DNA from: Aridibaculum aurantiacum
GTDB lineage: Bacteria > Bacteroidota > Bacteroidia > Chitinophagales > Chitinophagaceae
Direction: 5' to 3'
Length of the DNA stretch: 64,000 bases
Assembly: GCF_017355875.1 (NCBI RefSeq)
Contig: NZ_JAFEWC010000001.1
Span: forward strand, 1,550,001 to 1,614,000
A model generated the notes under the pieces. The model was not told the DNA's origin and made no database searches. It worked only from the letters and a program-made list of their open reading frames with translations. Shown here one piece after another: positions 18,219 to 58,822 of this stretch (its first letter is position 1; every line of letters starts with the position of its first letter). The translations under genes and the position numbers were made by a program.

Positions 18219-18272
18219 TTTGGTGACCAACGGCAGAGCTTTTTTCAACATCGTTGTGTCACTCACTTGTAC
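18219..18272 (-). repeat. Repeat family copy A (5' of rseP)
   Basis: Core at 18249-18272, reading on the minus strand GTACAAGTGAGTGAC then ACAACGATG. The degenerate tail TGGTCACCAAA is at 18219-18229. This is the variant core shared with copy E. It starts 60 bp upstream of the rseP start codon and has the same orientation as rseP. Confidence 0.8.
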
Positions 18273-18423
18273 GGTAGTACTGCCAGCCCCAGTACATGCA
18301 TTTATTTTCAATGGCAGCAAAGAAAGAATATTTCACCATTCCTTCCGCACCACCTGTATATAAAGCTCAGCTAATGTTTATGTTGCCAGGAGCAAAGTCA
18401 GAAGTTAAAATTCGAAAGGCTTT

Positions 18424-18458
18424 AACCTCCAACCTCCAACATCCAACCTCCAACCTCA
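18424..18458. repeat. Simple repeat of CCAACCT/CCAACAT words
   Basis: Tandem run of the 7-mer CTCCAAC and close variants just beyond the dxr stop. Low-complexity word repeats of this kind recur in several intergenic gaps of this window. Confidence 0.75.
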
Positions 18459-18461
18459 AAC

Positions 18462-19619
18462 TTACATTTGTATCAAAGATGCAGCAAAGCTTCTTGCTTC
18501 ACCATCTGTATCATAATATTCCTCCAAGGTAGGGGATTCAATAAAGCTGATCCTGTTCATGGTTTGTTCTACTACTTCGGTCATATCTAAAAACCCAATA
18601 CGGTTACGTAGAAATGCATAAACCGCTATTTCGTTAGCAGCATTTAGTATGCAAGGCATGTTTCCACCTTTGGCCAGTGCTTCCATTGCAAGTCCAAGGT
18701 TCCTGAAGGTTTTTACATCAGGCTCTTCAAAAGTGAGCGTAGAAACAGATTTGAAATTGAAACGTGGAAAATCATTTTGTATACGGTAAGGAAAACCAAG
18801 TGCGTACTGTATCGGCAGTTTCATATCAGGCAGTCCCATCTGCGCCTTCAGGCTGCCGTCCTCAAACTGCACCATGCTATGAATAATGCTTTGTGGGTGA
18901 ATTACCACCTGTATCTGGTCAGGCTTCAGGTTAAACAGCCATTTCGCTTCAATCATCTCCAGCCCCTTATTCATCAGGGTGGCGCTGTCAATAGTTATTT
19001 TGGCGCCCATCGTCCAGTTAGGGTGCTGCAGCGCGTGGTCGCGCTTCACATTTACCAGGAAGTTTGGCTTCTTTCCGCGAAAAGGTCCGCCACTTGCAGT
19101 AAGAATAACCTTCTCAATCTTATTTCTTGTTTCTCCCACCAGGCATTGAAAGATGGCAGAGTGCTCACTATCAACAGGTATAACCGGAACTCGATTTTCC
19201 AGCGCCTTCTGCATTACAATATCGCCGGCCACTACCAGCGTTTCTTTATTAGCCAGCGCCACCGGCTTACCATTTTCAATAGCTTGTAAGGTAGGTTTTA
19301 GACCAGCATAGCCAACAATCGCAGCCAGCATCAGGTCGTAAATATCCATAGCCGCCACCTCTTCCAATGCGCTTTCGCTTGTAAATACTTTTATATCTGT
19401 TTTAGAAAGCGCGTCTTTTACTTTTTGATATTTCCGCTCATCACCAATCACCACCACATTGGGGTTAAAATGCAATGCTTGTTGTATCAGCAGCTCGTCA
19501 TTTGTTTGAGCTGTAAGAACTTCTACAGAAAATTTATCAGTGTTGGCCGCAATAACTTCAAGGGCTTGTGTGCCTATAGAACCAGTTGAACCAAAGATTG
19601 CAATTCTTTTTTGCGACAT
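18462..19619 (-). CDS. dxr: 1-deoxy-D-xylulose 5-phosphate reductoisomerase
   Basis: Second enzyme of the MEP isoprenoid pathway, converting DXP to 2-C-methyl-D-erythritol 4-phosphate with NADPH and a divalent metal. The NADPH-binding motif IAIFGSTGSIGTQALEV is at the N-terminus. The active-site segments PVDSEHSAIFQCL and LTASGGPFRG are present, as are NKGLEMIEAKWLF and the C-terminal NAANEIAVYAFL. The length of 385 aa is typical. It follows the GH3-like gene by 43 bp on the same strand and precedes rseP. Confidence 0.97.
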   Translation of the reverse strand: MSQKRIAIFGSTGSIGTQALEVIAANTDKFSVEVLTAQTNDELLIQQALHFNPNVVVIGDERKYQKVKDALSKTDIKVFTSESALEEVAAMDIYDLMLAAIVGYAGLKPTLQAIENGKPVALANKETLVVAGDIVMQKALENRVPVIPVDSEHSAIFQCLVGETRNKIEKVILTASGGPFRGKKPNFLVNVKRDHALQHPNWTMGAKITIDSATLMNKGLEMIEAKWLFNLKPDQIQVVIHPQSIIHSMVQFEDGSLKAQMGLPDMKLPIQYALGFPYRIQNDFPRFNFKSVSTLTFEEPDVKTFRNLGLAMEALAKGGNMPCILNAANEIAVYAFLRNRIGFLDMTEVVEQTMNRISFIESPTLEEYYDTDGEARSFAASLIQM

Positions 19620-19662
19620 GTTTTGTTTTTAGCCTCGTAAAGGTAATGGATGAATAAACCTG

Positions 19663-21168
19663 TTACAGAATTCCATGAACCACAAAAGGTTGTAGCTCAT
19701 CGGAGAGCTTACGGTCGTTGCTCAGCCGGGGTACTTTGTTTTGGCCACCTAATTTGCCAATGCTCTTCATATAATTGATAAAGCCGTTCTTCTTTACCCG
19801 TGTTATCTTCAATACTTCAAGGATGTTACCGCTAATAAGGTCATCGTAGTATACATTCTTACCTCTTAGTTTATCATCAACTTTTTTTGCAAATGCCTTC
19901 AGGTCTGCCGGCTCGTTTTCAAATTCAATAAACCACTCGTGGTAGCTTTTGCCTTCATTAGAAGATATAAAAGGAGCCACAGTAAATTCAATAATACGCA
20001 CGCCTTCTTCTTTAGCGGCATTCAGCAATGCATATTCTACTTCTTCGCCAATCACGTGTTCTCCAAATGCTGAAATAAAATGCTTGATACGCCCAGACAC
20101 GATCAACCTGTACGGTGATGTACTGATGAACTTAACCGTATCGCCTATGTTATAGGCCCACAAGCCTGCATTGCTGCTAATAATGAGGGCGTAGTTCTCG
20201 CCGATCTTCACATCCTTCAGGCTGAGCCTGGTAGGGTTCTCGTTGAAAATTTCGTTGGCCGGGATAAACTCAAAGAATATGCCTGAGTTGGTATTTAGCA
20301 ACAACCCCGGCTCCTTATAATTATCCTGGAAAGCGAAAAAACCTTCTGATGCAGGAAAAAGTTCAATAGTATCTAATGGCCTGCCAATGCTTTCGAACAG
20401 TTTCGCCTTGTATGGTTCAAAGTTTACGCCTCCCTGTACCATGACAGAAAAGTTAGGAAAGAGCTCGCCTACTTTTTTACCGCTGCGTTTTACCAATGCA
20501 TCAAAATACATCTGCATCCAAGGGGGAATTCCGCTAATAAGCGTCATATCCTGGTTGATGGTCTCGTCAACGATCTTATCCAGTTTGGTTTCCCAATCTT
20601 CTATACAGTTGGTTTCGTAGCTAGGTAGTTGGTTAGTTCTTAAGTAAGATGGAACGTGGTGATTCACTATTCCGCTCAACCTGCCGGTTGGTATATCCGC
20701 TATTCTTTCAAGTTCCGGCGACCCACTCAGGAAAATCAATTTACCACTCGCAAATGCATAGTTGCCGCTTTGCGCCATATAGCACAGCAGTGCATTGCGA
20801 GCTGTATTTATGTGGTTTGGAATGGAGTCTTTAGTGATTGGTATGTATTTAACTCCACTGGTTGTGCCGCTGGTTTTCGCAAAATAACTTGGCTTACCCT
20901 TCCATAATATATTGTGCTTACCCTGCTTTACCTTTTCTATATATGGCTTCAACTGCTCGTAGTCTCGTACAGGAACAGCCTTTTTGAAATCGTCGTAATT
21001 CTTTATTTCATCAAAACCATGATCTTTTCCGAATTCAATGTTGCGCCCGGTCTTTACCAGGTTTTTGAAAATAGCATCCTGGTCTGCCAACGCCGTTTCT
21101 GTTCCTTTTTTTATCTGGTTGAATATATAATAGGCAAAAGGTTTTGCCAGCAGCGATTTTAGATTCAT
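19663..21168 (-). CDS. GH3-family acyl-adenylate-forming enzyme
   Basis: Protein of 501 aa in the GH3 (auxin-responsive) family, whose plant members join amino acids to carboxylic acids through an acyl-adenylate. The adenylation motif AKTSGTTSGVKYIPIT is clear. Further conserved stretches are SVMVQGGVNFEPYK, FPASEGFFAFQ, and VSGRIKHFISAFGEHVIGEEVE. No auxin biology is implied: bacterial GH3 homologues are common in Bacteroidota and their substrate is not known to me. A likely -7 box (TATTTTTG on the minus strand, 21198-21205) sits 30 bp upstream of the ATG. Confidence 0.88.
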   Translation of the reverse strand: MNLKSLLAKPFAYYIFNQIKKGTETALADQDAIFKNLVKTGRNIEFGKDHGFDEIKNYDDFKKAVPVRDYEQLKPYIEKVKQGKHNILWKGKPSYFAKTSGTTSGVKYIPITKDSIPNHINTARNALLCYMAQSGNYAFASGKLIFLSGSPELERIADIPTGRLSGIVNHHVPSYLRTNQLPSYETNCIEDWETKLDKIVDETINQDMTLISGIPPWMQMYFDALVKRSGKKVGELFPNFSVMVQGGVNFEPYKAKLFESIGRPLDTIELFPASEGFFAFQDNYKEPGLLLNTNSGIFFEFIPANEIFNENPTRLSLKDVKIGENYALIISSNAGLWAYNIGDTVKFISTSPYRLIVSGRIKHFISAFGEHVIGEEVEYALLNAAKEEGVRIIEFTVAPFISSNEGKSYHEWFIEFENEPADLKAFAKKVDDKLRGKNVYYDDLISGNILEVLKITRVKKNGFINYMKSIGKLGGQNKVPRLSNDRKLSDELQPFVVHGIL

Positions 21169-21197
21169 GCAACAAGCCGGATTTTACCAGCGGTGGG

Positions 21198-21205
21198 CAA
21201 AAATA
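21198..21205 (-). promoter_or_regulatory. Candidate Bacteroidota -7 box for the GH3-like gene
   Basis: TATTTTTG on the minus strand fits TAnnTTTG, 30 bp before the start codon. No clear TTG -33 element at the expected spacing, so support is partial. Confidence 0.35.
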
Positions 21206-21332
21206 GAGAAACAGTAGCTGATAAAGTTTATTTTTGCACCCATACCAGTGGCCGAAACAAAATGAACTGCCAATCCTTCTAGTTTTTTTATTATTTTTTG
21301 TCTTTTGTCCCTCTTTGTAAGTGCTAAACCCT

Positions 21333-21340
21333 TACCTTTG
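21333..21340 (+). promoter_or_regulatory. Candidate -7 box of the rplU-rpmA promoter
   Basis: TACCTTTG matches the Bacteroidota -7 consensus TAnnTTTG, 22 bp before the rplU start codon. TTTG words lie 15 and 25 bp upstream, neither at the ideal 19-21 bp spacing, so the -33 element is uncertain. Confidence 0.5.
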
Positions 21341-21362
21341 CACTCCTAATTTTGGAAAAGTT

Positions 21363-21668
21363 ATGTTCGCAGTAGTTAAAATCGCAGGACAACAATTTAA
21401 AGTTCAAGCTGGACAAAGCTTGTATGTACCTCACCTGCAAGGTAAATCCGGAGATAAAGTTGAGTTCAGCGATGTGCTGTTAACTGACGACAACGGAACT
21501 CTTTCTACCGGTTCAGATGTAAAAGCAAAAGTTACCGCCGAGATCCTTGCTGATCTTGTTCAAGGTGATAAAGTAATTGCTTTTAAAATGAAAAGAAGAA
21601 AAGGTTACCGTAAGAAGAAAGGTCATCGTACGCATTACACTCAAATAAAAATTGAAAGCATCGCGTAA
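21363..21668 (+). CDS. rplU: 50S ribosomal protein L21
   Basis: Ribosomal large-subunit protein that binds 23S rRNA. It opens MFAVVKIAGQQFKVQAGQ, the family's N-terminal signature, and carries the basic segment FKMKRRKGYRKKKGHRTHYT near the C-terminus. From ATG 21363 it is 101 aa, the normal length; an in-frame start at 21321 would add residues not found in the family. It is followed after 86 bp by rpmA, the usual L21-L27 pairing. Confidence 0.98.
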   Translation: MFAVVKIAGQQFKVQAGQSLYVPHLQGKSGDKVEFSDVLLTDDNGTLSTGSDVKAKVTAEILADLVQGDKVIAFKMKRRKGYRKKKGHRTHYTQIKIESIA

Positions 21669-21754
21669 TTTTTGGGTTGCTGAATTATCTATTATGTAGA
21701 TATTTTGCATGCTCCGAAATCTCACTATCTCAAAAAATATCAAAATAATTTACA

Positions 21755-22021
21755 ATGGCTCACAAAAAAGGTGAAGGTTCCGTAAAGAACGGTCGTGATT
21801 CACAAAGCAAGCGCTTGGGCGTAAAGATCTACGGTGGACAACCTGCTATTGCTGGTAACATCATCGTTCGCCAACGTGGTACATCTTACCACCCAGGTAA
21901 AAACGTTGGTGTAGGTAAAGATTTTACCCTGTTCGCATTGACTGATGGAGTGGTAGAATTTAGGAAAGGACGCAACGAAAGAACCACAGTATCAGTGGTT
22001 AATGTAGAAGCTACAGCTTAA
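21755..22021 (+). CDS. rpmA: 50S ribosomal protein L27
   Basis: Ribosomal protein whose N-terminus reaches toward the peptidyl-transferase centre. The sequence starts [20 protein letters not shown] and continues [25 protein letters not shown] and DFTLFAL, all diagnostic. The 88-aa form begins directly with the mature AHKKG sequence, so it lacks the cleavable extension seen in Firmicutes. Second gene of the rplU operon. Confidence 0.98.
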
Positions 22022-22090
22022 ATATTTTTTGGCAGTACCGAATAAGTTTTTACTTTTAATGCATATTTACTAACCATTAAATTTAAAAAC

Positions 22091-22426
22091 ATGGCAACTG
22101 CAAAAAAAGCAGCTCCTAAAAAGGCTGCTGCAAAAAAAGCTGCTGCTGCACCTAAAAAGGCTGCCGCTGCTCCAAAAAAAGCTGCCGCTAAAGCTGCTGC
22201 TCCTAAGAAAGCCGCTGCAAAAGCTGCCGCTCCTAAAAAGGCTGCTGCTAAAGCTGCTGCTCCAAAGAAAGCTGCTGCAAAAGCTGCTGCCCCTAAAAAA
22301 GCCGCTGCAAAAGCTGCTGCTCCTAAAAAGGCCGCTGCAAAAGCCGCTGCTCCAAAGAAAGCCGCTGCAAAAGCTGCTGCTCCTAAGAAGGCTGCTACTA
22401 AAAAAGCTGCTGCGAAAAAATCATAA
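22091..22426 (+). CDS. Histone H1-like Ala/Lys/Pro repeat protein
   Basis: A 111-aa protein made almost entirely of Ala, Lys and Pro, with about seven tandem copies of the 10-residue unit AAPKKAAAKA after an irregular start (MATAKKAAPKKAAAKK). It is strongly basic and resembles the C-terminal tails of eukaryotic histone H1 and the bacterial H1-like proteins, so binding to DNA or RNA is likely. The DNA carries a matching 30-bp tandem repeat with synonymous changes (GCT/GCC/GCA), which suggests the repeat is under protein-level selection. It lies 69 bp after rpmA and is closed by a strong terminator, so it may be co-expressed with ribosomal proteins. The long opposite-strand open frame is a by-product of the repeat. 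Confidence 0.8.
   Translation: MATAKKAAPKKAAAKKAAAAPKKAAAAPKKAAAKAAAPKKAAAKAAAPKKAAAKAAAPKKAAAKAAAPKKAAAKAAAPKKAAAKAAAPKKAAAKAAAPKKAATKKAAAKKS
22186..22395. repeat. 30-bp tandem repeat inside the histone-like gene
   Basis: About seven imperfect copies of a 30-bp unit encoding AAPKKAAAKA. Copy number is likely to vary between strains by slippage, in steps that keep the frame. Confidence 0.85.
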
Positions 22427-22453
22427 TAGGTTTTTAGGACGCTTAAATTATAG

Positions 22454-22480
22454 ATCCCGCTCAATGAGCGGGATTTTTTT
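22454..22480 (+). terminator. Strong Rho-independent terminator of the rplU-rpmA-histone-like operon
   Basis: Perfect 9-bp stem ATCCCGCTC / GAGCGGGAT with a 3-nt loop, followed by a run of seven T. Confidence 0.95.
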
Positions 22481-22500
22481 ATGTGGGTCTTGTATGGTTG

Positions 22501-23115
22501 TTAGTGCATCCTGTCGCCGCGAACTTCTAGTTTTGGGATGACAAGGGCTTCATATTCCAGCCACTCCTGCCAACGTTTTCTTACCACCTCTTTATCCAGG
22601 TATGTTTCCGCCAGTTCAATAAAGAGCGTGTAATGACCCGCTTCGCTTTCCATGAAACGGCGATAGAAGTTTGACATATATGGATCATTCAATCCTTCGC
22701 TTAAACGTTTGAAGCGTTCGCAGCTGCGAGCTTCTATAAGAGCAAATATCAATAAGCGATCTAATAAGGTTTCTGCCTCACTGCCGCCTTTCTTCTGAAA
22801 CTCCATCAGTTTATTTACATACTCATCTTTACGCTGGCGACCTAACTTCAAGTTCCGCTTTTTTAATTCAGCTAAAACAAGCCTGAAGTGGCCCCATTCT
22901 TCAGTAACGATGGGAGCGAGTTCTGTTACTAGTTTCTCTTTTTCTGAATAACGTTGAATGAGGGAAATGCAACTGGTAGCTGCTTTCTGTTCGCAGTATG
23001 CATGATCTGTCAGTATTTCTTCTAACGAAATATTCGCCAGGTCTACCCACCGCGGATCGGTAGGCAGTTTCAGGCCTAATATGTTTTTATCGTATTGTGA
23101 TTGCTCTTCTGTCAT
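22501..23115 (-). CDS. miaE: tRNA-(ms2io6A)-hydroxylase-like diiron enzyme
   Basis: Non-haem diiron monooxygenase that hydroxylates the isopentenyl group of ms2i6A37 in tRNA. Paired iron-ligand motifs are visible: the EEWGHFRLVL and EARSCERFKRL segments, and ESEAGHYTLFIELAE, each with the ferritin-like Glu plus His pattern. About 204 aa from ATG 23115 (MTEEQSQYDKN); an upstream TTG at 23139 is less likely. Monocistronic between the operon terminator and the divergent acylase gene. Confidence 0.9.
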   Translation of the reverse strand: MTEEQSQYDKNILGLKLPTDPRWVDLANISLEEILTDHAYCEQKAATSCISLIQRYSEKEKLVTELAPIVTEEWGHFRLVLAELKKRNLKLGRQRKDEYVNKLMEFQKKGGSEAETLLDRLLIFALIEARSCERFKRLSEGLNDPYMSNFYRRFMESEAGHYTLFIELAETYLDKEVVRKRWQEWLEYEALVIPKLEVRGDRMH

Positions 23116-23288
23116 TGTGATAGGTTCTGTGAGTTGCAAATATCTTTAACTCTGGCTACATGTATCAAAGCTTACAAGCTCTTATGTTTCCATCCGCACA
23201 CTGCGTTGTTGTAATAGATGAAACTATACAGCTGATTAAGGATTCTGTCTTTCTTAAAATCCTTATTTTCAAGCTATAATTGCTTTTT

Positions 23289-25745: not shown

Positions 25746-25754
25746 TAAACCTTC

Positions 25755-26147
25755 ATGAAGAATTTCTCTGCTTATATTCTTACGATGCTGCTTGCTTTTG
25801 CAGGTAGTTTATTCTTCCCATGGTGGATAATTGCTGTGGCAGCTTTTATTGTAGCTGTGGCTATACCACAAAAACCAGCAGCAGCACTGGCTACCGGCTC
25901 CGGAGCTTTGGTCACTTTATGGACTACCATTGCTATGGTTATTTCTTTTCAAAATGATGATATACTCGCCAAACGAGTAGCGTCTATTCTTTACCTGCAA
26001 GGATCAACTACTTACTTGATAATGGTTACGGCCTTTTTAGGAGGTTTGGTAGCCGGGATGGCTGCATTCTCAGGAAGCCTATTAAGAAGTTTAATTTTCC
26101 CAAAGCAAAAAGAAAAAACATCTGCTGTGGCTTTGGCAGAAGAATGA
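25755..26147 (+). CDS. Small integral membrane protein
   Basis: 130 aa with about four hydrophobic segments (LTMLLAFAGSLFF, WWIIAVAAFIVAVAI, ALVTLWTTIAMVI, YLIMVTAFLGGLVAGMAAF) and a short charged C-terminus. No known family is recognised. The gene starts 9 bp after the acylase stop, so the two likely form an operon, but nothing in the sequence links their functions. Confidence 0.75.
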   Translation: MKNFSAYILTMLLAFAGSLFFPWWIIAVAAFIVAVAIPQKPAAALATGSGALVTLWTTIAMVISFQNDDILAKRVASILYLQGSTTYLIMVTAFLGGLVAGMAAFSGSLLRSLIFPKQKEKTSAVALAEE

Positions 26148-26215
26148 AGCGGCTGTAAGATACCAGTCGTTTGAAATAAAAAAAGCTACTGCTATATTCG
26201 TTACAATAACTACTC

Positions 26216-29940: not shown

Positions 29941-29960
29941 ATATCATTTTCACCTTTATT

Positions 29961-46236: not shown

Positions 46237-46385
46237 GAAAAGTTGTTTGGCCAAACTTACAGGAAATAGTGAAAGAGAAGGAAGTTACTATTCCATGGCT
46301 ATGCTCTTCTTGTGACGATGCAGCCTGGTTTGTGTATTTCAGTTCATTGGAAGCTTTATGTTGGACTGCTGAAGGAAGTGCATAT

Positions 46386-46440
46386 GTACAAGTGTGCGAC
46401 GCAACGATGTTCCGTAAACATTCACATGCTGGTACCAAAC
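46386..46440 (+). repeat. Repeat family copy B (5' of FKBP gene)
   Basis: Core 46386-46409 (GTACAAGTGTGCGAC then GCAACGATG), 17-bp spacer, tail TGCTGGTACCAAAC at 46427-46440. Lies in the 206-bp gap between the FKBP start and the LytTR gene stop, antisense to both. Confidence 0.85.
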
Positions 46441-46459
46441 TTATTCTTCGCTACCTGGT

Positions 46460-47179
46460 TTAGCTCAGCATTTTAAGTACCTCATTGCGATAAAGTTTGC
46501 CAATGGGTACCTCGTTGTTGTCTATTTGGATCAGCTCGTGCGTGTAAGATCTTATTTTAGATAATGAGACGATGAAGGAACGGTGGGTTCTTACAAACTG
46601 CTGCTCGGGTAGCATGGCTTCTACTGAATTGAGCGATTGTTTTGTGATGATGACCTGCTCGTTGGTGAAGATCTTTACGTAGTCTTTCATGCTTTCGACA
46701 AAGTGGATGTCGTTGAGCATGACCTTCACCATTTTCCTGTCGGCCCGCACATATACGAACGATGGCTGGTTCCGTTCCTCCTTCACAGGTGCAATGTCTG
46801 CGGGCTTATGTTCTTTGATGTTGGATACTTTGTTTACTGCCCGTAAAAAACGATCGAAACGAATTGGCTTCAGAAGATAGTCTACTGCATCGAGCTCGAA
46901 ACCTTCTATGGCATACTCAGGATGCGCTGTGGTGAAGATGACCGGCGGCGGGTTCTTAAGCGCCTTTAAAAATTCAGTTCCTTTTAGCTGCGGCATTTGT
47001 ATGTCGAGAAACACAAGATCCACCTGGTGTTGGTGGAGATGTGTCATAGCCTCAATGGCATTGCCAAATTGTGCCTGTAACTGCAACGTTGGTAGTTGGT
47101 CGATGTACCTACCCAGGATTTCACGCGCAGGTGGTTCGTCGTCAATCACAATGCATGCTAATGGTTGCAGGTTATTCAT
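46460..47179 (-). CDS. LytTR-type response regulator
   Basis: 239-aa transcription regulator. Receiver domain with CIVIDDEPPAREIL, phospho-acceptor Asp59 in LVFLDIQMPQLKG and Lys in YLLKPIRFDRF. The LytTR DNA-binding domain covers about 140-239: VKVMLNDIHFVESMKDYVKI, FVRTHRSFIVSLSKI. The start overlaps its kinase gene by 8 bp, so the two are translated together. Target promoters are unknown. Confidence 0.94.
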   Translation of the reverse strand: MNNLQPLACIVIDDEPPAREILGRYIDQLPTLQLQAQFGNAIEAMTHLHQHQVDLVFLDIQMPQLKGTEFLKALKNPPPVIFTTAHPEYAIEGFELDAVDYLLKPIRFDRFLRAVNKVSNIKEHKPADIAPVKEERNQPSFVYVRADRKMVKVMLNDIHFVESMKDYVKIFTNEQVIITKQSLNSVEAMLPEQQFVRTHRSFIVSLSKIRSYTHELIQIDNNEVPIGKLYRNEVLKMLS

Positions 47180-48418: not shown

Positions 48419-48766
48419 TTATTTGTTTGACAAGCCAGCTATATGGTTGTTTTGTTTGTTTACATTCTCCCAGGCTACCAATGCAGAGTCCAATGCATGC
48501 TTCAATTTCATCAGTGTTCTTTTCTTTTTGATGTTGATAGATCTTCCGTCAACCATTTCAGAATAAATCCTCTGGTTGTCGTTGTTGTAGAAATGAATGG
48601 TAGCCCAAGTCTTGTCGTTGATGTTGCTTTCTACTATCCAGAAACCTTTATCGCTTACCCACTTGCATTTAGTGGTTTTTTGTTGTTCTTGTTCCTGCGC
48701 GAAAGAAGATTGGCTGCCGGTAACCAGGATCGTAAAAAGAAGCGTAGAGATCAGTAACTGTTTCAT
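48419..48766 (-). CDS. Small exported protein of unknown function
   Basis: 115 aa from ATG 48766 with a signal peptide (LLISTLLFTILVTGSQSSFAQ), a central segment CKWVSDKGFWIVESNINDKTW and a basic C-terminal half (RSINIKKKRTLMKLKHAL). I do not recognise the family. It is 95 bp upstream of the LytS-type kinase gene on the same strand, so it might be co-transcribed with that pair. Copy C of the repeat lies 194 bp upstream of its start. Confidence 0.65.
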   Translation of the reverse strand: MKQLLISTLLFTILVTGSQSSFAQEQEQQKTTKCKWVSDKGFWIVESNINDKTWATIHFYNNDNQRIYSEMVDGRSINIKKKRTLMKLKHALDSALVAWENVNKQNNHIAGLSNK

Positions 48767-48959
48767 GATGTTTAGTTGTTTGGTGAATAATTACATCGAA
48801 AACTATGCTGGCGCTAAAGGAAGAATTTGCTTAATAGGCAGGTGTTGGATGTGCGTATGCCGAAGGCCGAGATTTGTCGATAAACGGTGTTTGTAGACGA
48901 TGCTAATTATGGCCAGTAGGCAGAATAGGTGAGTAGCAAATGCTGCAGGGAGTAGTACA

Positions 48960-49015
48960 GCACAAGTGTGCGACGCAACGATGCTTCATTATAGTACTTC
49001 AGCTAAGTACCAAAC
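48960..49015 (+). repeat. Repeat family copy C (5' of the small exported gene)
   Basis: Core 48960-48983 (GCACAAGTGTGCGAC then GCAACGATG, one base off copy B), 17-bp spacer, tail AGCTAAGTACCAAAC at 49001-49015, which runs straight into the terminator repeat. Confidence 0.82.
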
Positions 49016-49062
49016 AAAAAACCCGCTCCATAACTGAAGCGGGTCTTTTTATTTTTGACTTT
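49011..49062 (-). terminator. Terminator and direct repeat, copy 1 (downstream of hicB)
   Basis: Hairpin ACCCGCT(TC) with loop and AGCGGGT at about 49021-49044, followed by T-rich DNA. The whole stretch CAAACAAAAA to TTTTTGACTTT is nearly identical to 49588-49639. It stops transcription from the hicBA side (minus strand). Confidence 0.85.
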
Positions 49063-49095
49063 ATCAATCAATCCCCTTGAATTTCCGACTTAGTC

Positions 49096-49308
49096 TCACG
49101 CAAATATCAGGCGTCCTTTAGGTTCCGGAATGTGCCACGAATTCTCCTGTGCCAGTTTGATCCATTCCTCAGCTACCAGTTTTACTTCCCGTAAGGCTTC
49201 ATCCTGTGTATCACCATGAGCAAGGCATCCTTTTAGCTCAGGCATCTCTGCAATATAGGACCCATCTTCCTCACTCCAAAAGATGATAACTTCATATTTA
49301 CTCACCAT
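49096..49308 (-). CDS. hicB: HicB-family antitoxin
   Basis: 70-aa antitoxin with the partially degraded RNase-H-like fold of HicB: YEVIIFWSEEDGSYIAEMPELKGCLAHGDT-type core (positions 5-34) and EALREVKLVAEEWIKLAQE. It lacks a separate C-terminal helix-turn-helix or ribbon-helix-helix, so it may neutralise HicA directly without strong autorepression (inference). The start overlaps hicA by 11 bp in hicA-hicB order. Confidence 0.9.
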   Translation of the reverse strand: MVSKYEVIIFWSEEDGSYIAEMPELKGCLAHGDTQDEALREVKLVAEEWIKLAQENSWHIPEPKGRLIFA

Positions 49309-49561
49309 GGTCTATCAGTTTATGTGTTACCAGGAACTCTCTTACCTGCTTTACCTGGTAAGGTTTAGCCTGGCTGGTTTTTGTCTTCTGCAAATTAATA
49401 ATTCCCTCTACACCTTTATGTGAAAAAATCCTGTGGCTACCACCCGTATGCCTTTCTTCAAAACCCAGCCGGATAAGAAGATTAACTAAATCGTCAAACA
49501 GGAAATTCTTATCTGACTTACCCGACAGAAGTTTAAGCAATATCTTTTCCATTTTGCTCAT
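49298..49561 (-). CDS. hicA: HicA-family toxin (mRNA interferase)
   Basis: 87 aa from ATG 49561 (MSKMEKILLKLL); the open frame reaches to 49594. The double-stranded-RNA-binding-like HicA core is present: LVNLLIRLGFEERHTGGSHRIFSH contains the conserved His in GGSHR, and VKQVREFL follows. Predicted RNase that blocks translation. It lies first, with hicB overlapping its 3' end. The whole module sits between two copies of the ahcY terminator. Confidence 0.9.
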   Translation of the reverse strand: MSKMEKILLKLLSGKSDKNFLFDDLVNLLIRLGFEERHTGGSHRIFSHKGVEGIINLQKTKTSQAKPYQVKQVREFLVTHKLIDHGE

Positions 49562-49587
49562 AACATAAAAGTATGACACTAGTTGTT

Positions 49588-49639
49588 CAAACAAAAACCC
49601 GCTCCATAACTGAAGCGGGTTTTTTTATTTTTGACTTTT
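49588..49639 (-). terminator. Terminator and direct repeat, copy 2 (downstream of ahcY)
   Basis: ACCCGCT(CCA) stem and AGCGGGT with T-run, immediately after ahcY on the minus strand. Near-identical to 49011-49062 over about 50 bp; the two copies bracket the hicBA module. Confidence 0.87.
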
Positions 49640-49649
49640 ACATTTTGCA

Positions 49650-50975
49650 TTAGTACCTATAAGCTTCCGGCTTGAACGGACCATCTTTAGGAAGACCAAG
49701 GTATTCAGCTTGCGCATCTGTCAGTTCATCCAGTACCACACCGATCTTAGCAAGGTGCAAACGCGCAACTTTCTCATCCAGGTGCTTAGGCAGAACGTAA
49801 ACTTTGTTCTCGTACTTATCAGTGTTTGTCCAAAGTTCGATCTGTGCAAGGGTTTGGTTAGTGAAAGAGTTACTCATCACAAATGATGGGTGACCAGTAG
49901 CACAACCGAGGTTTACCAGGCGACCTTCAGCCAACAGGATGATGTCTTTACCATCAATGGTGTACATATCAACCTGAGGTTTAATAGTATCCTTCGTGTT
50001 ACCATAGTTATCGTTCAACCATGCAACGTCAATCTCGATATCGAAGTGACCGATGTTACAAACGATCGCTTTATCCTTCATTGCTTTGAAGTGCTCGCCA
50101 GTGATCAGGTCGCGGCAGCCAGAAGCAGTAACGATGATGTCAGCTTCTTTCACAGCGTCAATCATACGCTTAACTTCAAAACCATCCATAGCAGCTTGCA
50201 GCGCACAGATAGGATCGATCTCGGTAACGATCACGCGGCAACCAGCACCAGCCAGTGAAGCAGCAGAACCTTTACCTACATCACCATAACCACCCACTAC
50301 AGCTACTTTACCAGCCAGCATTACATCGGTAGCGCGGCGGATAGAGTCAACCAGTGATTCTTTACAACCATATTTGTTGTCAAACTTAGATTTAGTTACG
50401 CTGTCGTTGACGTTGATCGCAGGGATAGGCAAAGTACCTTTCGCCATGCGCTCATACAGGCGGTGAACACCAGTGGTAGTTTCTTCAGAAAGACCCTTCA
50501 CGTGCTGGATCAGCTCAGGATATACATCAAACACCATGTTGGTCAGGTCACCACCATCGTCAAGGATCATGTTCAAAGGACGATCAGCAGCACCGAAGAA
50601 CAGCGTCTGCTCGATACACCAATCAGCTTCTGCCTGGCTCTGACCTTTCCATGCAAATACACCGATACCTGCAGCGGCAATAGCAGCAGCAGCGTGGTCT
50701 TGCGTAGAGAAGATGTTGCAAGAGCTCCACTTCACTTCAGCACCAAGAGCAACCAAAGTTTCGATCAGCACCGCAGTCTGGATCGTCATGTGTAGACAAC
50801 CAGCAATGCGTGCGCCTTTCAGTGGCTGGCTTGGACCGTACTCAGCACGGATAGCCATCAGGCCCGGCATTTCAGCTTCCGCCAAACGGATTTCTTTACG
50901 ACCCCACTCAGCCAGGCTGATGTCAGCCACTTTGTACTTCAGGCTGAAGTCGATGTTTTTAGATACTGTAGACAT
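49650..50975 (-). CDS. ahcY: Adenosylhomocysteinase
   Basis: NAD-dependent S-adenosylhomocysteine hydrolase of the methyl cycle, 441 aa from ATG 50975 ([15 protein letters not shown]). Diagnostic segments are [16 protein letters not shown], the NAD site [13 protein letters not shown] and the C-terminal [14 protein letters not shown]. The open frame's upstream extension to 51059 is not needed. It lies directly before the duplicated terminator. Repeat copy D and an inverted repeat are in its 5' region. Confidence 0.97.
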
Positions 50976-51014
50976 AATTGTTATTTCTGATTTTGAGATT
51001 TTGTGATATCTGAT

Positions 51015-51067
51015 TTTGTTACCAGCAGTAGGACGCTCTTCATCATCGTTGCGTCGCACACTTGTAC
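51015..51067 (-). repeat. Repeat family copy D (5' of ahcY)
   Basis: Core 51044-51067, on the minus strand GTACAAGTGTGCGAC then GCAACGATG, identical to copy B over its 24 bp. Tail TGCTGGTAACAAA at 51015-51027, spacer 16 bp. It lies 68 bp before the ahcY ATG and is co-oriented with ahcY. Confidence 0.85.
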
Positions 51068-51092
51068 TGGATGTTCTTTATTCATCTTTCTC

Positions 51093-51173
51093 TTGAACCA
51101 CAAAGACACAAAGGTCGCAAAGGAACACAAAGCCTTAGTGCATCTTAGTGTACTTGCTGTCTTAGTGGTTCAA
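51093..51173. repeat. 81-bp imperfect inverted repeat with TTGAACCAC ends
   Basis: TTGAACCAC (51093-51101) pairs perfectly with GTGGTTCAA (51165-51173). The interior continues the complementarity imperfectly (AAAGACACAAAGG against TTAGTG/CTTAGTG words). The ends resemble the GAACCACAAAGACAC words seen in non-coding DNA of many bacteria. Confidence 0.75.
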
Positions 51174-51283
51174 ACCAACAGCTACAAATCTACCTCCTAT
51201 AGTAGAATATCCTGCCACAGCCGCAAAGTTTAGGATGAACCTGTAGATAAAGCTACTTTTGCAGTACATCCACGCAGTTTATC

Positions 51284-51781
51284 ATGGCAAAAGCAGTTAA
51301 AACAGTAGAATCCACTACCACACCTATATCACTCGACGAAAAGGACCTATCGATCCTCCGGCTGCTGCAGGAAAATGCGCGGATAACTGTCAAAGAGATC
51401 TCTGAGAAAGTCCACTTGAGCACCACACCCGTACACGAACGCATCAAGCGGATGGAAGAGAGCGGCGTCATCAAACAATACGCAACACTCGTTGATTATG
51501 CAAAGGTGAAGAAAGGCCTGATGGTCATCTGCTATGTCTCACTAAAGCAGCACAGCAAGAACGCCGGCGACAAGTTTATCAAAACCATCCAGCAGCTAGA
51601 CGAGGTAATCGAATGCTACAACATCTCCGGTGAGTTCGACTTCATGCTAAAGGTGGTGGCGGAGGATATGAATGCCTACTACAACTTCCACGTAAACAAA
51701 CTAAGCTCCATAGAAAACATGGGCAATGTGCAGAGCGTATTTGTGATGGGTGTGATTAAAGAGACGCATAGGGTGGTGTGA
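51284..51781 (+). CDS. Lrp/AsnC-family transcription regulator
   Basis: 165-aa regulator. An N-terminal extension (KAVKTVESTTTPIS) precedes the helix-turn-helix (LDEKDLSILRLLQENARITVK, STTPVHERIKRMEESGVI) and the C-terminal ligand-binding RAM domain (GLMVICYVSLKQHS, IECYNISGEFDFMLKVVAED). These proteins sense amino acids. It is divergent from ahcY, so regulation of methionine/SAM metabolism is possible but only inferred from position. Confidence 0.94.
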   Translation: MAKAVKTVESTTTPISLDEKDLSILRLLQENARITVKEISEKVHLSTTPVHERIKRMEESGVIKQYATLVDYAKVKKGLMVICYVSLKQHSKNAGDKFIKTIQQLDEVIECYNISGEFDFMLKVVAEDMNAYYNFHVNKLSSIENMGNVQSVFVMGVIKETHRVV

Positions 51782-52163
51782 GGCGGAGGCGATAGGCATT
51801 AGGCGATAGGTAGAAGTCAAAAGTCAAAAGTCAAAAGTCAAAAGTCGAAATTCAAAAGAGGAAGGCGTAGGTTAAAGTCAGAATAGCAACGAAAAAACTC
51901 AACGCACCAAGACAAACATCAGCAACCCACTTTTACTTTTTTGACTTTTGACTTGAAATTCCTCTCACATAAATAAGTGATAACAGCAGGTCATCAACTG
52001 TAAGCTTGTTATTCATCTATGAGTTATAGCATGCTCTCGCTTCCTCTTATACCGCTGTAGCCGGGGTTTATCCATCTCTCTTTACGTTCATCACCAGTCA
52101 CATCTTTATGCGGGAACGGTGAGGGTGCAGGCATTCTAAGTTTGCGGTCATAACAAAACTGCA
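51782..52163. other. 382-bp gap with simple repeats before the ELWxxDGT gene
   Basis: No coding frame found. It starts with a duplicated AGGCGATAGG word, then an AAAAGTC 7-mer run (51814-51846) and its inverse word near 51943-51954 (GACTTTTGACTT), which could pair with it. TAAGTTTG at 52137-52144 fits the -7 consensus 20 bp before the next ATG, but no TTG is present at proper spacing. Confidence 0.55.
51814..51846. repeat. AAAAGTC heptamer tandem repeat
   Basis: About 4.7 copies of the 7-mer AAAAGTC. The reverse-complement word GACTTTTGACTT lies 97 bp further on. The same words recur at 54963-55000. Confidence 0.85.
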
Positions 52164-54248: not shown

Positions 54249-54270
54249 TATAGTTCTTCTGACTAAATAC

Positions 54271-54300
54271 AATAGCAGCCTGGAAGGGCTGCTATTGTTG
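54271..54300 (+). terminator. Terminator after the ELWxxDGT gene
   Basis: Perfect 10-bp stem AATAGCAGCC / GGCTGCTATT with a 6-nt loop, followed by GTTGTTT rather than a pure T run. Confidence 0.75.
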
Positions 54301-54389
54301 TTTACATGCTTATGGATGAAGATTTAGATGTGGGCTGTCTAACCAATGCAAATGATAAAAATCATCAGCCGAAGATCAAAAACCATTGC

Positions 54390-54959
54390 TCATTCTATTG
54401 ACTGCGTAGGCCTCTGTTCGCGGATGCCGTCATTGTTTTCTTCTGTCAGTTCCTTCTGCATAATGAAGTCGATCATCCAGTATCCATTGCCAATGTCTAT
54501 GTCTTTTTCTGCTATTACCTTATAGCCATTCTTTTCGTAGAAATTCTTTGCATTGTTCTTCCTGTTTACATTTAGCTGAAGATATTTTCCACCCATACTA
54601 TACGCTACTGCTTCTACTGTGTGCAGCAGCTTTATACCTGCTCCGGTTCCTTGAACAGTAGGCAGTACATACAGTTTCTGCAGTTTGTATATATCTCCTT
54701 CAATAAAGTTGAAGCTAGCGAAGCCAATCGGTTGCGCATCCTTGATAGCCAGGAAAAAGTGGTGGTTATCCTTCATCTGCTGTTCCAGCGCCGGGTGGGT
54801 ATAGAACAGCCCCAGCATATACTCCAGTTGCTCTTTGCTTAGTATCTCTTTATACGCCACCGGCCATGTCTCCGCAGCTATTTGTTGTATGTACCTGATA
54901 TCATTGAACGACGCAGGCCGTATCACAAGATCAGTAGAGGATGGTATGTGGTTGTTCAT
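54390..54959 (-). CDS. GNAT-family N-acetyltransferase
   Basis: 189-aa acetyltransferase from ATG 54959 (MNNHIPSSTDLVIRP). Acetyl-CoA motif A is visible in LQKLYVLPTVQGTGAGIKLLHTVE, with QGTGAG as the pyrophosphate loop, and the conserved NAKNFYEKNGYKVI near the end. The C-terminus is extended by about 25 charged residues. Substrate unknown. It follows the M14 peptidase gene on the same strand across a 128-bp gap of simple repeats. Confidence 0.88.
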   Translation of the reverse strand: MNNHIPSSTDLVIRPASFNDIRYIQQIAAETWPVAYKEILSKEQLEYMLGLFYTHPALEQQMKDNHHFFLAIKDAQPIGFASFNFIEGDIYKLQKLYVLPTVQGTGAGIKLLHTVEAVAYSMGGKYLQLNVNRKNNAKNFYEKNGYKVIAEKDIDIGNGYWMIDFIMQKELTEENNDGIREQRPTQSIE

Positions 54960-54962
54960 TTC

Positions 54963-55087
54963 TAAGTCAAAATTCAAAATTCAAAAGTCAAAAGTCAAAA
55001 TGTAAAATGCAAAATGTAAAACGGGTGGCTCAAAATCTCAAAATCCCACATCAGACATCCGACATCATAACATCCGACATCCGCCAT
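54963..55087. repeat. Simple word repeats between GNAT and M14 genes
   Basis: Runs of AAAATTC/AAAAGTC/AAAATGT 7-mers at 54963-55021, then ACATCCGAC/ACATCAGAC words at 55046-55087, just beyond the M14 stop. These are the same type of heptamer words as at 51814. Confidence 0.7.
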
Positions 55088-56818
55088 CTATCTTCTCACT
55101 ACTCCTCCTTTCTTACTATCCACCACCACGTTCACTTTACCTGCGCCTTGTACTATCCATCTTGCCGTCACCTGCCCTAAGCCAGGAATATTCGGAACCT
55201 CAACAGTAGCCGGGTTATTACGTTGCTCTACGGCAGCAGTGGGATTGCGATTATCAACCGTCATTCCTGCTATCACTTTAGCACCTTCTAAGGTGATGTA
55301 ATCTGGCCTTTCAATCTTATACTTCAGGTCCTGGCTGCTGTGCGTAGGCATCAGGCGCTTGTTCGATATCACTGCCGTGATCTCTCGTAAACCATCACCT
55401 AAACTTTTCTCCATTACCGTGTCTATCTCCAGCTTAGGCGTGTGGTAGGCATGGTAAATAGTGAATGCCATATTGCGGTGCGCATCACTCTCCAATAAGA
55501 AGCCCGGGTGCATACGACTGAAGTTTTTCTTTGGACCACCTATTTCTATTTTACCATACTGCGGGTGATCATATGACTTCCAATCTACAAAGGCATCTTT
55601 GAATAGCAGGTAGCGGTCAAACTCGTACGACGACAGATCATTTACACCACGTGTTGCGGAGGTATCATTAAACATCAGGCTAGGCGTCCACAATTCATTA
55701 CTGAAAGTATATACACCACGGCCACCATAGAACCAATCCAGCTCGCCGCCGTACACCGAGTACAGGTCTTTGTACACCACCAGGTACTTGTACGAAGGAA
55801 TGATCTGCTCACCTTTCTTACCAATAGCATCATATATCTGCACATCGGCAGCATTGTATGTATTCACATCTTCAATGGCACCCGGACCACGCAAGATCAT
55901 ACCGCCGGCGTTGTGGTACGACTGCGCCGCAGCAATGTTCGGATGCTTCATTACAAACTCCATCACCGCCCGGTTCTCAGGAAGCGAGAAAGGATATTTG
56001 TACGCGCCATTTTGAATGTAGTTAGGTTGCCAGTTCCAGCCCCAGTCGCGGTTAGGATCATATTCAAACTGCCCGCCGTCTTCATTCACCTGCCCATCAC
56101 CATCATTGTCTATTCCTTCCAGTCCCAGCATCTCGTATTCTCCCTGCTCATCAGGTCCCACCTGTATCATACGCGCCGGAAATGCAGGATCAATTTTGAA
56201 CCTTCCTGTGCTGCTCTTCCTACGCATCAGCGTAATGTGACCATCACCATCCAGGTCGTCATAACCATCTTCATTTACCAGCCCATCGCGGTCATTGTCT
56301 ACTGGCACAACACCACTGCGCGGCGAGCTTGCATTGTTAGGTGTTTTAAAAAATTTATCACGTGCATCTGGATTAATGGTAGGAACGATGTAGAAAGTTT
56401 TATCAGCTAGCAGGTCCTGGATGAACTTCGTATCGCCGAATGATTCGGTGAGGTACCAGGCGGTATACATGGCAAACTCGCTGCCTTGCACTTCATTGCT
56501 GTGAATGTTGCCGTCAATGTACATCGCCGGCTTTTTATTAGCATCACCTTTTTTATAATCTGTAATGGCTATGCACCAGATGTCGCGGCCTTCGTACGAC
56601 TTGCTAATGGATTCCACTTTGGCAAGATTAGGATATGCTGCAGCAATCTTCTTTAGTATCTCGCTAATGCCGCCATGGTCGTAGTATTTGTTCCAGCTTA
56701 CCTGCACCTTTGGATTAACAGGTGTACCCGCTGCTTTATATATCTGCTCCCTTGTTTGCGCCTGCGCTGTAGTTGCCAGGCCCACAATAACTATAATGAT
56801 TTGTATGATTGATTTCAT
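55088..56818 (-). CDS. M14-family zinc carboxypeptidase
   Basis: Exported zinc peptidase of 576 aa. The signal peptide is residues 1-20 (ending TAQA). Zinc ligands His106 and Glu109 lie in IDGNIHSNEVQGSE; the second zinc His is in AAAQSYHNAGGMIL; the general base Glu is in YTFSNELW; Arg/Asn substrate-binding residues fall near NPDARDKFF. Two Asp-rich inserts (DNDRDGLVNEDGYDD, IDNDGDGQVNEDGG) look like calcium-binding loops. All expected catalytic residues are present. It is directly downstream of a non-catalytic paralogue. Confidence 0.92.
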   Translation of the reverse strand: MKSIIQIIIVIVGLATTAQAQTREQIYKAAGTPVNPKVQVSWNKYYDHGGISEILKKIAAAYPNLAKVESISKSYEGRDIWCIAITDYKKGDANKKPAMYIDGNIHSNEVQGSEFAMYTAWYLTESFGDTKFIQDLLADKTFYIVPTINPDARDKFFKTPNNASSPRSGVVPVDNDRDGLVNEDGYDDLDGDGHITLMRRKSSTGRFKIDPAFPARMIQVGPDEQGEYEMLGLEGIDNDGDGQVNEDGGQFEYDPNRDWGWNWQPNYIQNGAYKYPFSLPENRAVMEFVMKHPNIAAAQSYHNAGGMILRGPGAIEDVNTYNAADVQIYDAIGKKGEQIIPSYKYLVVYKDLYSVYGGELDWFYGGRGVYTFSNELWTPSLMFNDTSATRGVNDLSSYEFDRYLLFKDAFVDWKSYDHPQYGKIEIGGPKKNFSRMHPGFLLESDAHRNMAFTIYHAYHTPKLEIDTVMEKSLGDGLREITAVISNKRLMPTHSSQDLKYKIERPDYITLEGAKVIAGMTVDNRNPTAAVEQRNNPATVEVPNIPGLGQVTARWIVQGAGKVNVVVDSKKGGVVRR

Positions 56819-56829
56819 GCGTATCTTTT

Positions 56830-56883
56830 TTTGTTTACCAGCATTTGTACTTGTGTCAACATCGTTGTGTCACTCACTTGTAC
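56830..56883 (-). repeat. Repeat family copy E (5' of the M14 gene)
   Basis: Core 56860-56883, on the minus strand GTACAAGTGAGTGAC then ACAACGATG, identical to copy A over its 24 bp. Tail TGCTGGTAAACAAA at 56830-56843, spacer 16 bp. It ends 12 bp before the M14 start codon. CAACGATGTTG can form a 4-bp hairpin here. Confidence 0.85.
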
Positions 56884-56948
56884 TGAATATCATTTTTCAG
56901 CTAAAGCTTCAGCCAAATAAGGCTATCACTCCACAAGCTCATTTCTTC

Positions 56949-56984
56949 ATTATCAAATTTTCAAATTGCCAAATTTTCAAATTA
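56949..56984. repeat. Simple TCAAATTTTCAAATT repeat
   Basis: Repeated TTTTCAAATT words just beyond the stop of the second M14 gene. Low-complexity. Confidence 0.7.
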
Positions 56985-56985
56985 C

Positions 56986-58626
56986 TCAGAGGTTGATGTC
57001 GATTCGTTTGGTGCCGGTGGTTGGGCTTCCTGCTTCCAGCGTTACCTTACCTGTGCCTCTTACAAGCCAGGTAAGCGTTTCACTACTATAACCTTCTAAG
57101 GAATTAAGCACCTGGTTCTTTTTGCCACTCAAAACAGATTGGTTGTTGTTGGTATCCATCTTCACTACTATCCGCTTTACCCAATAAGTTCTTTCACCGA
57201 GTTTACTATGACTAGCCAAAGCACCTTTGTTCATTACAGTAGCAGTAATGCGCGTAATGTTGTTGCCGAGTTTTTCTGTTTGAACATTCGTAATATCTAC
57301 TTCTGGTTGTAACGCAGCCAGCCGCGTTAAAAACGTAGTATGTTTCCGTACAATGGAATCAACCATAGCATAAGGCGGGTTGATCAATACAAAAGGATCT
57401 AAACCACCTACCTCAACTGTTTGGTTGGGATAGTCAGGATGGTTAACCTTTTTCCATTCTGTAAATGCGGGAGTGATATTATTTTGAGTAGCCCATCGCA
57501 GGTAATTGGCAGATGCGTCATCTACACTAAGCGGTTTTTCTTTTTTAGCTGTATCCGCTTTTGCTTTAGGTATATACCATCCCGGTGTACTAAAGCTGTG
57601 GCGGCCATAATGGAAGTACGCCCATGAAAGAAAATCTCCACCTGCTGCCGTAGTCTTTGGTGCGTCTTTCATGCTGGTCACTTTGTTGTACAAGTCACTC
57701 ACCATTGCATTGGCTTTTGCATCTGGCTCCAGCAGTCCCGCTACCAGCTTTTGATTAGCTTGTTGTGCATTGAAAGCAAGTGGCGTAGACAGGTTGTTAT
57801 TGCTGCCAAAGCTCACCACTGCATATATGTTGAACTGCTCGTACATGCGGTCGAGCAAGGCTCTTGTTTCTGGTTCACTTACTGCAAACTCGCCAGAGCC
57901 TTGTGTAAAAGAAGGGTGCTTGTAACTAAAGTTTTTATTGAACCAAACACCACCTTCACCATCTTCATTCAGGTTGCCATCCTTATCATTGTCTATGCCT
58001 TCAATAAGAAGCAGGTACTTGCCTTTCTCGTTCTTTGCAAGATCTGCTTTTATAAGTATGCGTGCATCATCAGGATGTGTGCGCCATTCGCCAATAGGAG
58101 AGGCTACCCGCATCTGGGTGATCTTGCCGTTGCCGTCTAAGTCATCATAACCATCTTCATTCGTCCTCCCATCGCGATCATCATCAGTCTGTGAAGCATT
58201 CCCCTGCCGCTCGTATCTCAGTTTAGCAAAGTATTGCTCCATGGCATCAGGGCTCATGTTGGGATAGATGTAAAACGTTGTTTTGTTCAGCAGGTTCCTG
58301 ATGCTGTCGGTGCTGCTGCCTTGCAATAACTTTTCGGCAAAGCCAATGGCCAGTTCTGTTCCCAGCAGGTGATTGCCTTCTACACCACCTACTACTGCTA
58401 TGGCAGGCTTGGTAGCGGTAATACCTGTACCAATGGTGATCATCCAGATGTCTTTACCGCCGGCTGTTTTTGCAATAGAAGCCACTTTGGCCAGTTGGCT
58501 ATAGCTCTTGCCAAGACTGTTGATGCGGCTGGATTGCTGCGCATAGTTGCTGTAGTCGGTTTGCGAAAAGCCGTAATGAGAAATAGATAAAGCGACACAA
58601 ATACAGGCCGCTATACGTTTTATCAT
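56986..58626 (-). CDS. M14-like protein lacking catalytic residues (pseudopeptidase)
   Basis: 546-aa exported paralogue of the next gene, with a signal peptide ending around residue 21 (SHYGFSQ). It aligns along its length, including the calcium-loop inserts (DDDRDGRTNEDGYDD, GIDNDKDGNLNEDGEGG). The zinc HxxE is replaced by Glu83-x-x-His86 in GGVEGNHLLG, the second zinc His falls on Gly (VVSFGSNNN), and the base Glu falls on Pro (SFSTPGW). Three key sites are changed, so peptidase activity is unlikely. It may bind peptides or partner the active M14 enzyme encoded 167 bp downstream. Confidence 0.88.
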   Translation of the reverse strand: MIKRIAACICVALSISHYGFSQTDYSNYAQQSSRINSLGKSYSQLAKVASIAKTAGGKDIWMITIGTGITATKPAIAVVGGVEGNHLLGTELAIGFAEKLLQGSSTDSIRNLLNKTTFYIYPNMSPDAMEQYFAKLRYERQGNASQTDDDRDGRTNEDGYDDLDGNGKITQMRVASPIGEWRTHPDDARILIKADLAKNEKGKYLLLIEGIDNDKDGNLNEDGEGGVWFNKNFSYKHPSFTQGSGEFAVSEPETRALLDRMYEQFNIYAVVSFGSNNNLSTPLAFNAQQANQKLVAGLLEPDAKANAMVSDLYNKVTSMKDAPKTTAAGGDFLSWAYFHYGRHSFSTPGWYIPKAKADTAKKEKPLSVDDASANYLRWATQNNITPAFTEWKKVNHPDYPNQTVEVGGLDPFVLINPPYAMVDSIVRKHTTFLTRLAALQPEVDITNVQTEKLGNNITRITATVMNKGALASHSKLGERTYWVKRIVVKMDTNNNQSVLSGKKNQVLNSLEGYSSETLTWLVRGTGKVTLEAGSPTTGTKRIDINL

Positions 58627-58751
58627 GTATATGGTTTTGAAAAATAAATATAGGTAAACAGCAGCAGGTTCATTGAAAATTAGTTGCGTTTACAGGTATA
58701 GCTGCTAGAGGCTATTTGTATCGAAAATAAATTGAGAAGATGGCTGGTTGG

Positions 58752-58822
58752 CTGATGCAAAATGATATGCCGTACAAGTGTGCGACGCAACAGGAGCATG
58801 GTCAACGATCTGCTGCTTGTAC
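58752..58822 (+). repeat. Repeat family copy F (5' of the pseudopeptidase gene)
   Basis: Core 58772-58791 (GTACAAGTGTGCGAC then GCAAC), with the last bases diverged (AGGA). A TGCTG tail start lies at 58811-58815 and CTTGTAC (58816-58822) pairs with GTACAAG (58772-58778). A head word AAAATGATAT (about 58759-58768) is shared with copy E. The most divergent copy. Confidence 0.7.

Follow-up and report, generated by a model that had tools for sequence, protein, structure and literature searches.

The window analysed here, a stretch of 64,000 nucleotides from Aridibaculum aurantiacum (contig NZ_JAFEWC010000001.1, positions 1,550,001 to 1,614,000), contains six copies of an intergenic repeat. This repeat is interpreted, with a rough probability of 0.58, as one arm of a non-coding element resembling REPINs (doublets of repetitive extragenic palindromic, or REP, sequences) and BIMEs (bacterial interspersed mosaic elements), whose core persists as a putative site for a host protein. 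The repeat constitutes a family with a defined arm anatomy, its arms occur as head-to-head doublets which, when pooled, preferentially unite two core types, and its copies avoid genes. Gaps containing a copy are longer at two sites, and where an orthologous site could be compared, the flanks are much less conserved than the core. The doublets and the core constraint extend beyond what a preliminary description of this DNA had seen.

The arm, as delimited with anchored profiles, is approximately 75 nt long. It begins with a repeat named R1, near GCTGAATAgAAttAC, followed by the core GTACAAGnGnGYGACRCAA and by CGATG or a variant thereof, and is completed by a second repeat, R2, near TTAATAGnAGTACTaatGCTGG, and by an A-rich tail. 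R1 and R2 are imperfect direct repeats of each other, separated by about 44 nt and enclosing the 19-nt core. The head of the core reads GTACAAG in most copies, with variants including GCACAAG and GTTGAAG, and the outer tips of the tail differ among copies (TAACAAAA, TACATAA, CTCAAAA). The core had been described as 24 bp long; this pattern is present, but only its first 19 bases are fixed while the last five vary. The two core subtypes proposed at the same time are real, core positions 11 and 15 being C-G in 210 of 406 copies, T-A in 191 and different in the other 5. This paired change had been taken as support for a short stem. Although a 7-bp DNA palindrome, GYGACRC, is retained, 401 of the 406 copies belong to two near-fixed haplotypes, so that the change does not reflect repeated, independent compensation. 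All six copies, named A to F, were found where they had been located initially:

18216..18291, minus strand: copy A, core 18254-18272 of the GTGACAC type, tail towards 18216, left repeat R1 at 18273-18291; the M50 peptidase gene 16840-18189 starts about 30 bp from the tail
46367..46442, plus strand: copy B, core 46386-46404 of the GCGACGC type; the LytTR regulator gene 46460-47179 has its stop about 20 bp from the tail
48941..49016, plus strand: copy C, core 48960-48978 of the GCGACGC type, with the head variant GCACAAG
51011..51086, minus strand: copy D, core 51049-51067 of the GCGACGC type
56826..56902, minus strand: copy E, core 56865-56883 of the GTGACAC type
58753..58826, plus strand: copy F, core 58772-58790 of the GCGACGC type, with CAACAGGAGC instead of CAACGATG

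The association of arms in doublets becomes apparent in related genomes, which are designated here, like genera, contigs and loci, by our own numbers (G, g, C and L, respectively). In these relatives, 59 of the 62 neighbouring pairs less than 200 nt apart are arranged head-to-head, the preferred distances in G164 being 43 nt (12 pairs) and 50 nt (4 pairs), and each doublet constitutes an interrupted palindrome of about 150 nt. Heterotypic doublets, with one arm of each core type, represent 44 of 57 cases; the permutation mean is 26.1 with a standard deviation of 3.6, and none of 5000 permutations reached 44. The three doublets submitted to folding, out of 16, are predicted to form hairpins with z-scores of -5.5, -6.3 and -2.1. 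The short stem suggested earlier for single copies was not recovered: copies A, B, D and E of the window fold with z-scores between -0.8 and +0.8, and two bare 24-mers reach -1.4 and -0.8 kcal/mol, no better than shuffled sequences. The A. aurantiacum genome displays one head-to-head pair below 200 nt and the window none.

The A. aurantiacum genome (4.86 Mb, 5 contigs) contains 52 matches to the 24-base core pattern with at most 2 mismatches, 28 forward and 24 reverse, compared to 0 for the reversed pattern used as a control. This number is a lower bound because the last five bases of the pattern vary, and the family is clearly not limited to the few copies of the window; such a limitation would, according to the preliminary description, have argued against an element family. 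All nine congeners searched carry copies, from 3 to 866 each. Individual counts amount to 866 in G001, 63 in G006 and 3 in G007, and G164 contains 263 pattern matches. In G164, sampled in tiles at even intervals, the density amounts to 0.435 copies per kb; the value for G001, 0.367 per kb, comes from contigs chosen, like the stretches of G000, for holding copies. A first search among relatives retrieved copies from 16 of 39 genomes (A. aurantiacum included) and 7 of 30 genera, and a family-wide draw found the pattern in 91 of 294 genomes and 47 of 101 genera, high-copy genera standing beside empty ones. G180 (genus g96), for example, holds 53 copies, 23 of the 24 among the matches listed belonging to one subtype, whereas its congeners G104, G232, G276 and G310 have none. 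Among 80 named contigs around one gene of the window, a clear copy was found solely in a Segetibacter metagenome-assembled genome (L133, 1 mismatch). The 24-base pattern had no match in viral contigs, one 77-base and one 87-base query had none in viruses, phages and plasmids, and Rfam at gathering score returned 0 matches in the window. When six core strings were searched in the literature, two occurred in one unrelated plant paper and the other four nowhere. At the level of titles and beginnings of abstracts, the publications retrieved on REP sequences and their tyrosine transposases (RAYTs), Chitinophagaceae repeats, uptake sequences, BIMEs and miniature inverted-repeat transposable elements (MITEs) of Bacteroidetes do not name the family.

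Copies are largely excluded from coding regions. Only 20 of 406 are located within open reading frames (ORFs) of at least 80 aa, defined as longest-ORF calls rather than annotated genes, though such ORFs cover 84-87% of the sequence; the situation which was to count against an element, namely copies equally common inside genes, is not observed. The initial view of the repeat as a dispersed element and not an operator is borne out by this exclusion, by the many copies found in both orientations and by longer gaps in the presence of a copy at two of three compared sites. Between co-directional neighbours, antisense copies are somewhat commoner than sense ones (28 versus 12 in G000, 32 versus 26 in G001, 21 versus 11 in G004, G005 and G009 together). 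For sole copies, the tail side is the one nearer to a gene in 30/50, 50/79, 30/40 and 53/87 cases (p = 0.2, 0.024, 0.0022 and 0.053, respectively), a weak tendency which fits solo arms of a 150-nt unit. A stronger rule, according to which the tail touches the gene end, was dropped as the effect weakened upon retesting from the core centre. A replichore strand bias in G164 and G262 was withdrawn since it rested on places listed in part, and head-to-head doublets in adjacent gaps were taken to explain an alternation of orientation over several kb in G001.

The comparison of occupied and empty sites indicates how much DNA accompanies a copy. The gap concerned in the window is the following:

56819..56985, minus strand: gap containing copy E, 167 bp

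Elsewhere, the same gene pair is separated by 16-44 bp in 21 of 22 related contigs and by 135 bp in one, these 22 being taken from 45 contigs shown (80 fetched), with gaps measured to the start of the match and a few thereby including first codons. About 145 bp were therefore likely inserted. The gap between the S17 and L14 genes contains a copy in G180 only, among 45 genomes hand-picked, many of them for holding copies, and measures 248 bp there versus 107-121 bp in four congeners. The excess lengths, about 145 bp at the copy E site and 127-141 bp at S17-L14, are both near that of a doublet, with one intact arm at each site.

The core appears to be under constraint. In 313 kb of G001, cores with 0, 1, 2 and 3 mismatches number 97, 13, 4 and 2, respectively, when scoring is restricted to places with GAC or AAG at fixed core positions. 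At 4-5 mismatches 50 places remain, as compared to 62 in the reversed control, and one of them has matching flanks. The gap between rplN and rplX (L14-L24), analysed in the same 45 genomes, offers an orthologous site. It is occupied in 16 genomes of 8 genera, each with one copy on the operon strand; 14 of these are clear, while G087 and G096 show 4 and 3 mismatches. Identity among the 14 clear genomes, G087 and G096 being left out, reaches 0.88 for the core, 0.35 for R1 and 0.50 for R2, and the values for seven genomes of the genus, A. aurantiacum included, are 0.93, 0.33 and 0.51. At this gap G094 displays a tail without core, and G003 and G007 display no copy. Core types may differ at one place: G082 and G164, of one genus, share a common tail at rplN-rplX with different core types, 4 of 19 positions apart, and orthologous copies of G048 and G144 at a single place are distinguished by two positions in the core and one beside it. 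The rplN-rplX cores of G230 and G040 are mixed in form, which would equally allow a stepwise change of the core. The fixity of the core could result from selection acting on it as a binding site or from conversion among its copies.

Two further features were noticed in the rplN-rplX gap. In G002, which is not among the 16 genomes (L444), the core is interrupted by about two dozen extra bases. In five genomes of genus g1, A. aurantiacum included (L415-L419), a similar hairpin-like stretch follows the copy shortly before rplX (TGCGAAGTCGGAAATTTCGCA in G000).

Such a constraint also suits a rival explanation, considered unlikely but the best placed of the rivals, in which the repeat is a DNA site owned by the host: the core would be bound by a chromosome protein acting in topology, condensation or segregation and kept by selection, its copies not being usefully mobile. 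A core 93% identical at rplN-rplX within the genus with flanks near saturation, the occupancy of this gap across eight genera (in hand-picked genomes) with a copy on the operon strand in each case, the near absence in G001 of cores with 4-5 mismatches and matching flanks, and the little length added by a copy at rplN-rplX all speak for it. A site of this kind is harder to reconcile with the many genera of the family devoid of any match, with 53 copies in G180 and none in four congeners, with the 127-145 bp or so of extra spacer accompanying a copy at two sites, and with the tail without core in G094 and the empty gaps of G003 and G007.

The REPIN/BIME-like element which is favored here would operate as follows. 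Two arms placed head-to-head would form the interrupted palindrome of about 150 nt, which an enzyme acting in trans would likely insert into intergenic DNA in the form of a single-stranded hairpin; movement could take place through this hairpin during replication. Solo copies, such as the six of the window, would be elements of which one arm is left. A host DNA-binding protein may recognise the core, hence its persistence, and a putative binding site of this type is the likeliest reason for the fixed core. The site would act at the DNA rather than the RNA level, because copies occur in both orientations relative to transcription. By analogy with known systems, the mobiliser would most likely be a Y1 (HUH) tyrosine transposase. 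A more ambitious version is regarded as rather improbable. In it, a mobile palindrome would have become domesticated throughout a bacterial family, with the 19-nt core serving as a chromosome-wide DNA recognition site; two alleles of this core would replace each other as entire blocks, even where the position is fixed.

The likeness to REPINs and BIMEs (the Y and Z units of Escherichia coli) resides in short intergenic multicopy units, in close inverted pairs which recur at short spacing in the relatives and can fold, in the joining of two unit types within one pair and in the presence of solo copies. The present family differs by a head which is mostly GTACAAG and not GT[AG]G, by single arms which, when folded, do not form stable hairpins, by a core flanked by direct repeats and by the lack of a link to a RAYT: a cognate RAYT between two inverted units was found in one possible case (L266). 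With REPs tagged by GTAG or CGTC it shares the extragenic location and a high copy number (up to 866 per genome); a hairpin with an unpaired GT[AG]G or CGTC tag at its foot was not observed, nor was a unit of 20-40 nt forming its own stem-loop. CGTC-tagged REPs are reported to be mostly head-to-head dimers, apparently without a dedicated transposase, and to occur in Bacteroidetes among others (PMC3733652), three traits shared by the present repeat; as far as the text of that source goes, the two differ, the only CGTC found here being internal to one core type, on its reverse strand, rather than at a stem foot. As in MITEs, the insertions are non-coding, about 150 nt long, located between genes and built of inverted arms; unlike the conserved terminal inverted repeats of MITEs derived from DDE transposons, the outer tips vary, and a target duplication is not established. 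The family is accordingly a REPIN/BIME-like one of Chitinophagaceae-type bacteria, which behaves as REP doublets do but lacks the REP tag and, as tested here, the single-arm hairpin and RAYT flanking, and which has an unusually fixed core.

A REP proper, moved by a RAYT of group 5 (TnpA subclass 2.6), is a somewhat less probable rival than a host-owned site. In Bacteroidetes, such genes are reported to have atypical structures on their flanks, further copies of which occur at other places in the genome (PMC6006769); phylum, atypical structure and dispersed copies agree with the present family, which departs from those repeats in that copies are not enriched beside such genes in four congeners. 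Group-5-type RAYT proteins were found in 18 of 23 genomes searched, two of the five Y1 loci of A. aurantiacum have a copy nearby (within about 200 and 600 bp; L011 and L009), and at locus L266 of G001 a RAYT gene with an internal stop is located between two head-to-head copies 1 kb apart. Against this, only 4 of 30 RAYT loci hold a pattern match with at most 2 mismatches (6 matches in all), no enrichment of copies is seen next to these genes in G001 or in G004, G005 and G009, and Y1 matches do not track copy number: 2 (one with three stops) for 866 copies in G001, none for 63 in G006 and 7 for 3 in G007. RAYT flanking was consequently rejected as a rule, although single genomes may differ. Many RAYT-like gene fragments, several with stops, were observed in contigs C152, C96 and C211 of G004 and C58, C89 and C108 of G005, the RAYT-like matches amounting to 11 and 10, respectively, as if a gene family had expanded and then decayed.

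A DNA uptake sequence spread by biased natural transformation is very improbable: the copies, numbering in the hundreds, their head-to-head pairing and the concerted core types do resemble the uptake sequences of Neisseria, but a unit of 75-150 nt that brings extra spacer at two sites and is kept out of genes (20/406 in ORFs) is unlike a short word tolerated in coding sequence.

A number of results weigh against the REPIN/BIME-like interpretation. The heterotypic preference is clear by itself only in G164 (31/38), the values for G001 (7/11) and for G004, G005 and G009 (3/4) being within chance and that for G048 and G144 being 3/4. Almost every copy in the A. aurantiacum genome is solo, and 221 copies scanned with a profile had either strong partner arms or none at all, with no decayed partners. 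At rplN-rplX there is no clear excess of length with a copy: gaps measure 84-95 bp with one (g74, g84, g86) and 58-83 bp without (g96), and gaps without a copy reach 151 bp elsewhere. A target-site duplication was not established. At 6 mismatches in G001, six places have good flanks versus 0 in the control, possibly representing degraded or shifted cores, and selection and conversion of the core are not distinguishable from the present data. No mobilising enzyme is tied to the copies by these data either: 4 copies lie beside Y1/RAYT genes of G001 where 2.5 are expected from density, and 2 where about 5 are expected in G004, G005 and G009, one G005 locus being counted twice (L103, L255). G164, despite its many pattern matches, returned no PF01797 match; RAYT absence from this genome is not proven, because PF01797 misses some group-5 proteins which a protein query finds.

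The surroundings of the window copies were also inspected. All six had been placed 5' of a minus-strand gene, which is true, but A, B, C, E and F have a minus-strand gene on either side and are therefore 3' of one as well, whereas D is 5' of both its neighbours, an AdoHcyase gene on the minus strand and an AsnC-type regulator gene (51284-51781) on the plus strand. Copy D overlaps the listed ORF 49650-51059; the GTG start of this ORF is probably too far upstream, because the piece 49650-50960 keeps the AdoHcyase domain from its residue 8. No transposase adjoins the copies, as initially reported: none of ten proteins beside them has a transposase domain in Pfam, and one of them (48419-48766) has no Pfam match at all. 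The tail of copy E ends about 10 bp ahead of the ATG of the M14 peptidase gene 55088-56818, and copies E and F bracket a second such gene (56986-58626). These two adjacent M14 zinc carboxypeptidase genes (55088-58626) are side by side in 45 of 45 related contigs shown. Copy F is the most divergent of the six and retains a diverged tail, GCTTGTACACAAG, hence its end near 58826. Copy C is followed by a terminator-like hairpin (49016-49048), with whose A-run its tail merges. This hairpin and its surroundings (46 nt) occur twice, at 49017-49062, which copy C abuts, and at 49593-49638, with 98% identity, and bracket about 530 bp in which no ORF of 100 aa is listed. In addition, 14-nt repeats of the AAGTCAAAA type occur in runs at 51786-51871 and 54950-55035.

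REP-like elements are best known from Proteobacteria, with an attached transposase. The present family, which occupies a position of the ribosomal operon between rplN and rplX in eight genera with its core kept, raises the question of what moves REP-like DNA where no transposase adjoins, and whether a repeat, once spread, turns into a binding site of its host.

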